A DNA stretch of 64,000 nucleotides from Rubeoparvulum massiliense (lineage in GTDB: Bacteria > Bacillota > Bacilli > Rubeoparvulales > Rubeoparvulaceae). Position numbers and translations under genes: made by a program. Below the pieces are notes generated by a model. The model was given only the letters and a program-made list of their open reading frames with translations. It did no database searches and was not told the DNA's origin. The DNA lies in contig NZ_CVPE01000006.1 in the NCBI RefSeq assembly GCF_001049895.1, forward strand, positions 1 through 64,000. The letters are read 5' to 3'. Of the stretch, positions 17,421 through 21,493 are shown piece after piece. Position 1 is the stretch's first letter. Every line of letters starts with the position of its first letter.

Positions 17421-18536
17421 ATGGGCACACGCATCGGTATTATTGGTCTAGGCTTAATCGGAGGCTCATTAGCAAAGGCGTGGCAAGACCATCCAGATGT
17501 TGAAGTGGTCGCCATTGATCGAGAGGAAGAGACAATTCAGCAAGCATTAAAGGATGGAACTATCGTTGCTGGAAGCACTGAGATGGATGAAGAGCTCCTT
17601 GTCTCCTGTGATGTGATTCTACTCTGTGTCCCTGTTGGGCAGGTGATACCCATGGTTAAACAACTATGCCAGCTTCCCTTGCAATCAGGTACGATCATTA
17701 CAGATACAGGGAGTACGAAGTGTGGAGTGATGGAGGGAGTATCCGAATTTATTCAAGAACATCTTCACTTTATTGGTGGTCACCCTATGGCAGGCTCCCA
17801 TCGTTCAGGCTATGGCGCAGCTTCTCCTTCATTACTTGCCAATGCTTTCTATGTGATTACACCATTTCCTACCACACCCAAGGCAGCGGTTGAACGTCTT
17901 GTTAATTTACTTCGAATCACCAAAGTGAATGTGATCGAGATGGAATGGCAGGTACATGATCAAGTAGTGGGTGCAGTGAGTCATTATCCCCATGTGCTAG
18001 CAGCAGCCATGGTAAATATGGTGGCCCGCTATAATAAGGATGAGCCTTTATATCATCTGCTAGCTGCTGGTGGATATAAGGATTTTACAAGGATCGCCGC
18101 CAGTAACTGGGAGATGTGGCGAGATATTGTACTGAACAATCGTAATGTCCTCTTAACTTATATGGATGAATTGCGAAAGGATTTGGATCGTCTAGCACAA
18201 GCCATCCGTCATGATGAGAGTGACTATATTGAGCATTTTTTTCAAGCGGCGAAGGAAGCCCGTCAGTCCTTACCCGAACGGAAGCGGGGTGGGCTCCTCA
18301 CATGGTATGATTGCTATGTGGATGTACCTGACCATCCAGGTGTGATCGCCGAGATTACGGTGTTGCTTGCCAATGGTGGGTTTAATCTACGCAATATTAC
18401 AATCCTAGAAAATCGTGATGGGGTATTAGGCGCTCTTTGCTTAACTTTTCGTCAGAAGGAAGAGATGGAGGGTGCCATGGCTCTCCTAGAAGAGCATGGT
18501 TATCCGGTCTCACTCCCTTCCTATACGCTGGTGTAG
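17421..18536 (+). CDS. tyrA: Prephenate dehydrogenase with C-terminal ACT domain
   Basis: TyrA oxidatively decarboxylates prephenate to 4-hydroxyphenylpyruvate for tyrosine synthesis. The 371-residue product begins with the NAD-binding IGIIGLGLIGGSLAKAW. It has ITDTGSTKCGVM, GGHPMAGSHRSG in the active site, and DFTRIAASNWEMWRDI. A C-terminal ACT domain starts near residue 295 (VDVPDHPGVIAEITVLLANGGFNLRNI), consistent with feedback control by tyrosine. The ATG at 17421 has AAGGAGG, 12 bases after the hisC stop. There is no good terminator before the following leader. Confidence 0.94.
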   Translation: MGTRIGIIGLGLIGGSLAKAWQDHPDVEVVAIDREEETIQQALKDGTIVAGSTEMDEELLVSCDVILLCVPVGQVIPMVKQLCQLPLQSGTIITDTGSTKCGVMEGVSEFIQEHLHFIGGHPMAGSHRSGYGAASPSLLANAFYVITPFPTTPKAAVERLVNLLRITKVNVIEMEWQVHDQVVGAVSHYPHVLAAAMVNMVARYNKDEPLYHLLAAGGYKDFTRIAASNWEMWRDIVLNNRNVLLTYMDELRKDLDRLAQAIRHDESDYIEHFFQAAKEARQSLPERKRGGLLTWYDCYVDVPDHPGVIAEITVLLANGGFNLRNITILENRDGVLGALCLTFRQKEEMEGAMALLEEHGYPVSLPSYTLV

Positions 18537-18686
18537 GTTTTCTTCATACGAAGCTTCGAAAGAATAGGCTTCATCGTGCTTCTTACAGCATGAATGGAGC
18601 CTCTTTTTGGTCACAATTAGTTATAAATATGCATAATTATGAATACAGTTGTGGCAAACGATTGAAATGACAGAACATTCATAGAG

Positions 18687-18714
18687 TTGCAATATACAAT
18701 AAAAGTGATAAAAT
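18687..18714 (+). promoter_or_regulatory. Sigma-A-type promoter upstream of the first MFS exporter gene
   Basis: TTGCAA (18687-18692) and TAAAAT (18709-18714) are 16 bases apart. The transcript would start near 18721, leaving a leader of about 172 bases before the exporter start codon. Confidence 0.55.
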
Positions 18715-18754
18715 ATATATAGGAACTAAAGTGGTCCAAAGGTATGTGATAAAA

Positions 18755-18799
18755 ATGTTTAGCTTATATAAAAATCCAAGTGTGAGGTCTAATTGGTAG
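18755..18799 (+). CDS. Upstream ORF (14-residue leader peptide) of the MFS exporter
   Basis: The frame reads MFSLYKNPSVRSNW and ends with TAG at 18797. AAAGG (18738-18742) lies 12 bases upstream as a modest ribosome binding site. Its stop codon forms the first three bases of TAGCTTCC (18797-18804). That sequence is exactly complementary to GGAAGCTA (18882-18889), which includes the Shine-Dalgarno region of the exporter gene. This is the layout of inducible translation attenuation, in which ribosome stalling on the leader frees the downstream binding site. The peptide sequence itself is not recognised. Confidence 0.55.
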   Translation: MFSLYKNPSVRSNW

Positions 18800-18889
18800 C
18801 TTCCCTCTATTCGGTAAGGGTCTTTCGGTGCAAAGGCTCTTTCTTTGATCATCTCTAAATCTTGCTAACATCAAACTAGGAGGAAGCTA
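18797..18889 (+). promoter_or_regulatory. SD-sequestering stem in the MFS exporter leader
   Basis: TAGCTTCC at 18797-18804 pairs perfectly with GGAAGCTA at 18882-18889. The pairing can extend past a bulged C to cover AGGAGG. Alternative hairpins inside the loop include CCCT/AGGG (18803-18806 with 18817-18820) and GTCTTT/AAAGGC nearby. The first would compete with the sequestering stem. Confidence 0.6.
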
Positions 18890-18892
18890 AAA

Positions 18893-20218
18893 ATGTTTCG
18901 CAATAAAGGTTTTAGCCGTCAGCAAGCCTTTGGCTTTGGCGTGGTTGTATTTAGTCTATTTATGGATATGTTCTTATACAGTATGATCATCCCAATTGTA
19001 CCGACGTATGTTCATGAATTGGGAGCAAGTGATTCAATGATTGGGCTACTTTTTAGTATTTATGCGTTGGGAATGATGGTAGCAACCCCAATCTTTGGCA
19101 TGATCTCCGATCGGATTGGCCGTAAGCGTCCGATGATCTGGGGAACGGCAGGCTTAATGGTTTCCACACTGCTGTTTGCTTTCTCCAATAGCATGACCTG
19201 CTTGATGATTGCCCGTTTCTTACAAGGGGTAGCAGGTGCAGCACCTTGGACTGCAGGGCTAGCACTCTTAGCTGATATTTTCCCAGCCAATAAGCGTGGT
19301 CAAGTGATGGGTCTGGCTGTTTCTGGACTCTCAGCAGGTACGCTACTAGGTGCACCCCTTGGTGGGATTCTCTACGATTGGGGTGGCCATTACCTTCCCT
19401 TTTTAGTGGTTACAGTTTTAACCTTCTTTAATCTCTTAGCCACATTTTTTGGTGTGGAGGAACCAAGTCGGAATACTGCTTCTATCGTTAAGGTAGGTAA
19501 CCAAGGTGAAGTGAAGCTTGGCCAATATCTAAAGAGCACACCGATTATCTTGGTCTCTGCTATTGTATTAATGGCAGAATCAGTATTAACCATGATCGAA
19601 CCGCTCTATCCACCTTATTTGGAACGGACATTTTCATTATCTGCCTCTACCGTGGGATTGATTTTTGGTATTTCCACCGTAGGCTACAGTATTGCTTCAG
19701 TCATTTCTGGTCGCTTAACAGACCGCTACAATCCTCAGATGAACATGGTAATTGGGCTGATTATCCTCGCATTGAGTCTGCCATTCTTAATGCTAGCAGA
19801 TACTATCACAGAGGTTTGTATCGCCATGTTTTTCTTCGGATCATCTATTGGCTATACCGTGACGCCAACTTTACCTACTCTTTCCATCATTGTGGAGCGG
19901 AAGGGTAGTGCGAGCTATGCAACAGTCTATGCCATCTTTAACCTGGTCGTGGGCATCGGAATTCTCGTGGGACCGATTATCGGTGGAGTCTTCTCAGATA
20001 CAATCGGTCTCTCCTACGCCTTCTACACCATGAGTGGGGTCACTGTGCTCTTTATTCTATTAGTAAAACCATTACTCAATAAGTACAAAGCAGCTTGGGA
20101 GCGAATAGAACTTTCTCAGAAGAGGGAGAAAGAGAAAGTGAGTGTACCAACAGGTGCGCTTAAATCCTCTCTCCTCAAGCAACCACTTCAAAATGTGGCA
20201 CCAGAAAAATTTGAATAA
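18893..20218 (+). CDS. MFS exporter 1 (drug/metabolite efflux type)
   Basis: The 441-residue protein has about twelve membrane segments and the antiporter-type motifs. MISDRIGRKRPM is motif A in the loop between helices 2 and 3, and GLSAGTLLGAPLGGILYDWGG is the motif C region of helix 5. A second motif A-like loop is ISGRLTDRYNPQM. It is of the multidrug/quinone-resistance-like 12-helix class. AGGAGGAAGC precedes the ATG, and this SD can be hidden by the leader stem. A close paralogue follows. The substrate is not predictable; its place inside an aromatic amino acid cluster could mean export of aromatic compounds or be incidental. Confidence 0.9.
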   Translation: MFRNKGFSRQQAFGFGVVVFSLFMDMFLYSMIIPIVPTYVHELGASDSMIGLLFSIYALGMMVATPIFGMISDRIGRKRPMIWGTAGLMVSTLLFAFSNSMTCLMIARFLQGVAGAAPWTAGLALLADIFPANKRGQVMGLAVSGLSAGTLLGAPLGGILYDWGGHYLPFLVVTVLTFFNLLATFFGVEEPSRNTASIVKVGNQGEVKLGQYLKSTPIILVSAIVLMAESVLTMIEPLYPPYLERTFSLSASTVGLIFGISTVGYSIASVISGRLTDRYNPQMNMVIGLIILALSLPFLMLADTITEVCIAMFFFGSSIGYTVTPTLPTLSIIVERKGSASYATVYAIFNLVVGIGILVGPIIGGVFSDTIGLSYAFYTMSGVTVLFILLVKPLLNKYKAAWERIELSQKREKEKVSVPTGALKSSLLKQPLQNVAPEKFE

Positions 20219-20221
20219 TGA

Positions 20222-20248
20222 TGGGGCTGGCCAGGCCCCTTTTTTTTA
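20222..20248 (+). terminator. Terminator between the two MFS genes
   Basis: GGGGC pairs with GCCCC around a short GC-rich loop, followed by eight T, right after the stop codon of the first MFS gene. Confidence 0.8.
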
Positions 20249-20256
20249 CACAAGGG

Positions 20257-20285
20257 TTTACATATTATAACAATATTAATGTAAA
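20257..20285 (+). promoter_or_regulatory. Inverted repeat around the -10 region of the second MFS gene
   Basis: TTTACAT (20257-20263) and ATGTAAA (20279-20285) form a perfect 7-bp inverted repeat separated by 15 bases. It encloses a TATAAC -10-like hexamer (20266-20271). It ends 11 bases before the ATG. This looks like a repressor operator; the regulator is not identified. Confidence 0.5.
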
Positions 20286-20296
20286 GGGTTTTTACA

Positions 20297-21493
20297 ATGA
20301 CAAAACAACAGCGGATTGGCTTTATCATAGTCGTGTTAAGTCTTTTTTTGGATATGCTCCTTTATAGCTTAATTATCCCCATCATTCCAACATATGCAGT
20401 GCAGCTGGGAGCATCAGATTCGATGCTCGGTTTTCTCTTCAGCATGTATGCCATCGGGCTCATCGTAGGAACACCATTGATCGGCTACCTCACAGAGAGG
20501 AAGGGGAGAAAGCTCCCGATCTTAATTGGTACGTTAGGATTGATTCTTGCAACCCTAGATTTTGCCCTTGCAGATACCTTGAGCCGCTTGATGTGGGCTC
20601 GCTTTTTCCAAGGGATCGCAGCTTCAGCCCCATGGACTGCAGGTTTAGCGCTGCTTGCCGATCTCTTTAAGGAGAATCGGGGCAAGGTGATGGGATATGC
20701 AGTGACAGGCTATTCCATTGGTACATTGCTGGGAGCGCCCCTCGGTGGTGTCCTCTATCAATGGGGCGGTCATTTAACACCATTTATTTTGGTCATTGCG
20801 TTGGCAGCCATCAATTTTTGCTTGATTGCTATCTTTTTACGAGAGCCGCAGCATGATAATCAACCCCATAAAAGTGTGGGATTCTATCTAAAGCAACCAG
20901 GTATTCTCTTTACATCCATGGTGGTGATACTGATCGGTAGTACCATGACGGTGGTAGAACCCATGTATCCGCCCTTTTTAGAGCATGAATTAGGGGCTAC
21001 ACCAGCACTCATTGGCTTTATCTTTGGGATGTCTACACTGGGGCATATTATTAGCTCACCAGTGGCGGGGATCCTTACCGATCGCTTTAATGCGCGTATT
21101 AATATGCTTGGTGGCTTGGTAGGCTTAGGAATTTCACTAGTGATGCTAGCGTTTGTAGGTAGCATTTGGACATCGACACTGGTGATGTTTATCTTTGGCT
21201 TCTCGTTAGGCTATGCCATCGCACCGACCTTACCTGAATTAGCACGGGTTATGGATCTTCATGGCAATACCAATTATGGCTTCGTTTACACGATTTTTAA
21301 CCTGGCATTTGGGGTTGCCATTATTATAGGTCCTATCCTGGGCGGCTTTTTAACAGACTGGTTTGGGCTTCATCGTGCGTTGATTTACATTAGTGTTACA
21401 CTCTTTCTTGTAACCGCTATCCTCTTTATCCAGTGGTTTAAGAAAGAGCCCACCCCTATCCAGTATTTAGCATCAAATAAAAATAATCTGTAG
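20297..21493 (+). CDS. MFS exporter 2 (paralogue of exporter 1)
   Basis: The 398-residue MFS protein resembles the preceding one throughout: the same FSLFLDMLLYSLIIPIIPTYA-type first helix, YLTERKGRKLPI loop, ARFFQGIAASAPWTAGLALLADLF and GYSIGTLLGAPLGGVLYQWGG. It lacks the longer charged C-terminal tail of its neighbour. The ATG at 20297 has only AAAGGG about 10 bases upstream, and the leader is very short. A tandem duplication with different control of each copy is likely. The stop codon lies inside a 10-bp inverted repeat that overlaps the next promoter. Confidence 0.9.
   Translation: MTKQQRIGFIIVVLSLFLDMLLYSLIIPIIPTYAVQLGASDSMLGFLFSMYAIGLIVGTPLIGYLTERKGRKLPILIGTLGLILATLDFALADTLSRLMWARFFQGIAASAPWTAGLALLADLFKENRGKVMGYAVTGYSIGTLLGAPLGGVLYQWGGHLTPFILVIALAAINFCLIAIFLREPQHDNQPHKSVGFYLKQPGILFTSMVVILIGSTMTVVEPMYPPFLEHELGATPALIGFIFGMSTLGHIISSPVAGILTDRFNARINMLGGLVGLGISLVMLAFVGSIWTSTLVMFIFGFSLGYAIAPTLPELARVMDLHGNTNYGFVYTIFNLAFGVAIIIGPILGGFLTDWFGLHRALIYISVTLFLVTAILFIQWFKKEPTPIQYLASNKNNL

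Follow-up and report, generated by a model that had tools for sequence, protein, structure and literature searches.

The RNA from about position 18721 to position 18892 of the analysed window, a 64,000-nucleotide stretch of DNA from Rubeoparvulum massiliense, may serve the exporter gene MFS1 as a translation-attenuation leader, a reading to which we assign a probability of about 0.42. At rest, a segment that starts with the stop codon of a short leader ORF would pair with the exporter SD and keep translation low. Were a ribosome to halt at the final leader codons or the stop, it would cover this anti-SD segment and partly free the SD. Computed folds contain the helix and show it opening in part; translation of the leader, a ribosome pause there and the cause of that pause are our inference. 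If the leader is real, it would place a chromosomal VMAT-related exporter under ribosome-sensing control and point to a testable class of inducers. Otherwise it serves to illustrate how frequently an 8-base complement to an SD turns up by chance within the leader of the same gene.

Leader ORF and predicted SD-hiding helix

Direct reading of the forward strand confirmed the 14-codon upstream ORF described in an earlier note on this DNA (18755–18799; peptide MFSLYKNPSVRSNW; stop TAG at 18797–18799). Trp is codon 14, the last of the ORF, and stands right before the UAG stop. The ribosome-binding region of the ORF, AAAGG UAU GUGAU (18733–18754, forward strand), forms an anti-SD duplex of –7.4 kcal/mol with 13 bases from AAAGG to AUG, and is thus weaker and more distant than the exporter SD (–10.2 kcal/mol). 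Farther upstream, a consensus scan found a promoter-like site on the same strand (18687–18714; TTGCAA-16-TAAAAT, 9/12 matches, TG ahead of the –10 element), from which the RNA would be expected to start near 18721; three such sites in 18500–18960 against 1.6 expected are no proof of function. A 21-codon TTG ORF (LVASLYSVRVFRCKGSFFDHL; 18793–18858, forward strand), preceded by GAGG (SD energy –6.8), begins within the final codons of the leader ORF, and TTG ORFs are common. The starts of the leader ORF (18750–18763) and of MFS1 (18888–18901) have TAAAAATGTTTNGC in common at 13 of 14 bases; the former could be a remnant of the MFS1 gene start, or the likeness could be due to chance.

The 3′ end of the leader ORF, UAGCUUCC, pairs exactly with GGAAGCUA in the exporter ribosome binding site, as had been proposed, and the match proved longer than claimed. 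Its 8-base core joins TAGCTTCC (18797–18804) to GGAAGCTA (18882–18889) across 77 intervening bases. The extended match between the anti-SD arm UAGCUUCCCUCUA (18797–18809, forward strand), whose first base is the first of the leader stop codon, and the SD arm UAGGAGGAAGCUA (18877–18889, forward strand), which includes the exporter SD AGGAGG (18878–18883), comprises 12 of 13 pairs with one G-U pair and one C-A mismatch and spans the entire SD. Folding of the leader region, suggested in the earlier note as a check, placed the helix in the MFE structure, with pair probabilities of 0.73–0.995 for the 8-bp core in the ensemble. The exporter SD was computed to be unpaired at rest with a mean probability of 0.12–0.19, the lower figure referring to the GGAGGA stretch.

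The predicted fold also contains the short hairpin that had been noted within the loop (AAGGGUCUUU/AAAGGCUCUU; 18816–18841, forward strand), with 10 pairs followed by the poor T run TCTTTGATCA. This hairpin could in principle terminate transcription conditionally, depending on where the ribosome stands, so that control would occur by transcription attenuation; terminator-like sites are indeed more numerous in the region than expected (two against 0.3). However, only three of the 10 pairs are G-C, the T run is broken and the other terminator-like site is probably the tyrA terminator, so we regard this explanation as very improbable. A search of the window with Rfam riboswitch and T-box covariance models at gathering score returned only 5S rRNA, the leader being unmatched, and (G/U)AG repeats of the TRAP kind, sought in the leader by eye, were too few.

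The effect of a stalled ribosome was modelled by masking its footprint. The unpaired probability of the MFS1 SD, 0.19 at rest, became 0.28 when codon 14 occupied the P site and 0.46 when the ribosome stood at the stop; a small change of footprint and SD stretch gave 0.24 and 0.37, respectively. The opening is only partial because segments 18758–18765 and 18860–18866 or 18775–18777 re-pair with the SD arm. The first of these, UUUAGCUU (18758–18765, forward strand), lies within the leader ORF, is the complement of AAGCUAAA (18884–18891) and takes over the pairing (0.46–0.82 in the model) when the ribosome is at codon 14 or the stop. As large a gain on masking was found in seven of the 38 same-genome leaders with an SD-preceded ORF, the MFS1 leader counted. 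As a control we used the cat leader of pC194, which mediates chloramphenicol-inducible translation attenuation; in the same model its SD went from 0.0 to 0.41 unpaired on stalling. The ermC leader of pE194, a true attenuator, was missed by the SD-opening metric because in its modelled resting state the start codon is hidden (AUG 0.004 unpaired) rather than the SD. The metric is therefore an unreliable test either way, and the model neither proves nor excludes attenuation at MFS1.

Comparison with shuffled and same-genome leaders

The competing explanation is an ordinary 5′ UTR, in which the pairing is fortuitous or slightly lowers translation, the ORF has arisen by chance and the exporter is under transcriptional control. 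We take it to be a strong contender, and an ordinary chance pairing to be almost as likely as a cat-like leader. For comparison we collected, from 464 kb of the same genome (the window plus 400 kb), the 142 leaders whose genes have a gap of 180 bases or more; the genes came from a simple ORF caller with SD-weighted starts, some of which are wrong. Short ATG ORFs of 5–40 codons occur in 121 of the 142 leaders, the candidate included, so that the presence of the leader ORF by itself means little and fits an ordinary 5′ UTR well; an ORF with a ribosome site, present in 38 of the 142, is weakly informative.

The pairing on its own points the same way. When the SD side was kept fixed and the leader was shuffled 2000 times, the leader–SD duplex (–16.8 kcal/mol) was matched by 8.1% of the shuffles, the 8-base exact complement by 5.3% and the energy of the 13-base core by 4.85%. 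As strong a duplex was present in 28 of the 142 leaders and as long an exact run in 11, the candidate being counted in both. With the helix taken without other features thus matched by 5–8% of shuffles and by these 28 leaders, pairing by itself proves nothing. Nor was the total folding energy of the region better than that of shuffles (z = +0.60; 146 of 200 folded as well), again as expected for an ordinary 5′ UTR.

What stands against that explanation is the helix over the entire SD, with core pair probabilities of up to 0.99, and the combination of features. An ORF equipped with an SD, a helix at its stop that hides the SD of the gene and a high pairing probability came together in just 3 of 1000 dinucleotide shuffles and in two of the 142 leaders, that of MFS1 included. 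Because we devised this combined test with the finding already in view, the low counts make the case look better than it is. The second of the two leaders precedes a 1275-aa CoA enzyme activase-like ORF (BcrAD_BadFG, DUF2229; L099:8485-12309, minus strand); it too includes an upstream ORF of 14 codons, and its computed SD-hiding helix is even stronger than that of MFS1. The start of the activase-like ORF may be miscalled, since its first Pfam domain begins only at residue 186.

The exporter, its neighbourhood and its relatives

MFS1 (18893–20218, forward strand; ATG at 18893) encodes a 441-aa DHA1-type exporter (Pfam MFS_1, 6.3e-68). A terminator-like hairpin with a T run (20223–20247, forward strand; –11.8 kcal/mol by sequence and fold) directly follows the gene, which suggests that MFS1 is probably monocistronic. 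With the promoter-like site before the leader and this hairpin after the gene, we infer that MFS1 forms a separate unit. Its tandem neighbour MFS2 is 49% identical, and the pair spans 18893–21493. An imperfect palindrome, TTTACATATTATAACAATATTAATGTAAA, lies 5′ of MFS2 (20257–20285) where its promoter is expected; MFS2 may accordingly have its own repressor, apart from the MFS1 leader. The same genome contains a second tandem MFS pair (G000:C5 84937–87989). A promoter-like stretch before one gene of that pair is the best match to the leader elsewhere in the genome (E 0.078; 76% over 53 bases), and a search of the genome for further leader copies returned just weak partial matches.

In phmmer comparisons MFS1 was closer to VMAT2 (1.1e-43) than to NorA (4.3e-22), and vesicular monoamine transporters are the nearest solved structures of both MFS1 and MFS2 (E 1.1e-43 and 1.4e-39). 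The TM1 Asp (D25) aligns with that of the VMAT2 motif LLLDNM. A bacterial VMAT homologue has reportedly been described from Brevibacillus. Among the 25 NCBIfam matches listed for MFS1, the superfamily model TIGR00880 was the only one passed, and all equivalog and exception models stayed far below cut-off; no equivalog cut-off was reached for the named MFS resistance exporters (Tet, CmlA/FloR, Cmx).

The two exporter genes are placed between hisC-tyrA and the genes for DAHP synthase (aroF) and pheA. Gene context thus allows the guess that MFS1 and MFS2 export an aromatic compound or an amine, and these neighbours also bear on a second account of the leader, namely that it senses an aromatic amino acid. 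Here a ribosome held at Trp14 or the stop, by shortage of Trp-tRNA or by a TnaC-like response to excess Trp, would free the SD. Trp14 is located where a ribosome must sit for the helix to open, and the rtpA leader with its Trp codons and TnaC provide precedents. However, a single Trp codon says little, nothing resembling TnaC was recognised in the leader, and the window has neither a T-box nor any other Rfam element except 5S rRNA. Moreover, the gene order was not retained: a tyrA, aroF, pheA or hisC homologue beside the MFS gene was found in 0 of 67 homologous loci within the stretch examined. We therefore consider aromatic sensing very improbable. A more specific version, in which a VMAT-like exporter would be switched on by ribosomes at a Trp-stop leader in response to Trp or an aromatic compound, not an antibiotic, and with two successive anti-SD segments, appears very unlikely.

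Relatives offered little for comparison, as the order to which the window belongs is represented by one genome. The best MFS1 homologues elsewhere are proteins of Brevibacillus, Paenibacillus and Bacillaceae with about 35–44% identity. Apart from MFS2, no full-length relative above 44% identity was found in 61 relatives or in genome_contigs (48 loci), nor among the matches listed for 398 genomes of the class (E 1e-60) and 398 of the phylum (E 1e-95); one genome_contigs locus reached 58%, over 89 residues only. The viral_contigs held no MFS1 relative, and no plasmid relative with at least 60% identity was present among the best 5000 records. Removal of duplicates, short upstream sequences and the loci L074–L078 (no hit or start) reduced the 67 loci to 55 upstream regions, which belong to MFS homologues mostly 35–44% identical, a few 29–32%, and without the synteny of the window. 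In these distant homologues the SD-hiding link came near the observed value of 0.854 in 0 of 55 regions and reached at least 0.3 in two. At this distance the pairing is not conserved, conservation in relatives being a check that the earlier note had set.

By eye, a palindrome of the type AAAACTAATAAAACAAAAATAGTTTT (AAAACTA..TAGTTTT) stands just 5′ of the start in many homologues, and MFS1 is without it; such palindromes were read in L031–L037, L046, L048–L052 and L080–L095. They are likely TetR-type operators, as judged from the sequence, and at least in L002 a TetR-like gene adjoins the MFS gene. The MFS1 homologues are thus probably controlled by transcription, in line with the ordinary 5′ UTR.

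Comparison with known attenuators

Translation attenuation nevertheless remains our leading explanation, and the MFS1 leader is best described as a plausible but unproven example of an established class, cat-like, with modest statistical and no comparative support. The layout of inducible resistance genes, to which the leader had been compared in the earlier note, was borne out as far as the cat-type anatomy is concerned, which comprises a promoter-like site, an ORF with an SD, an anti-SD segment at its stop and a hidden SD. No particular inducer was supported: inspection of the leader peptide by eye gave neither the +X+ motif of macrolide arrest nor any other known arrest motif, and among the NCBIfam matches listed no named resistance exporter is close to MFS1. 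The antibiotic and the amino acid readings of the inducer are both conjectural.

The ermC leader of pE194 shares with that of MFS1 a leader ORF 5′ of a hidden start region, and its leader peptide contains a macrolide arrest sequence. At the level of the gene, MFS1 resembles cmlA and fexA as an MFS exporter gene with a possible attenuation leader; both appear in Table 1 of PMC5418344 as phenicol MFS exporters controlled by translation attenuation. Against the CmlA/FloR model, MFS1 scored 61.7 bits where the cut-off is 450. VMAT and the bacterial VMAT-like DHA1 exporters are, by sequence, the best solved relatives of MFS1 and MFS2.

The closest parallel is pC194 cat. The two differ in the leader peptide, MKKADK in cat and 14 codons with a weak SD in MFS1, and in the arms, which form a tight hairpin in cat and are 67–77 bases apart in the MFS1 leader. 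Unlike in cat, a second segment re-hides the SD of MFS1 and the stall would be needed at or near the stop; the gene product, a VMAT-like exporter, is different as well. What the two leaders have in common is a short leader ORF, an anti-SD arm right at its stop, a strong SD hidden by this arm and a computed opening of the SD by a stalled ribosome that is of similar size.
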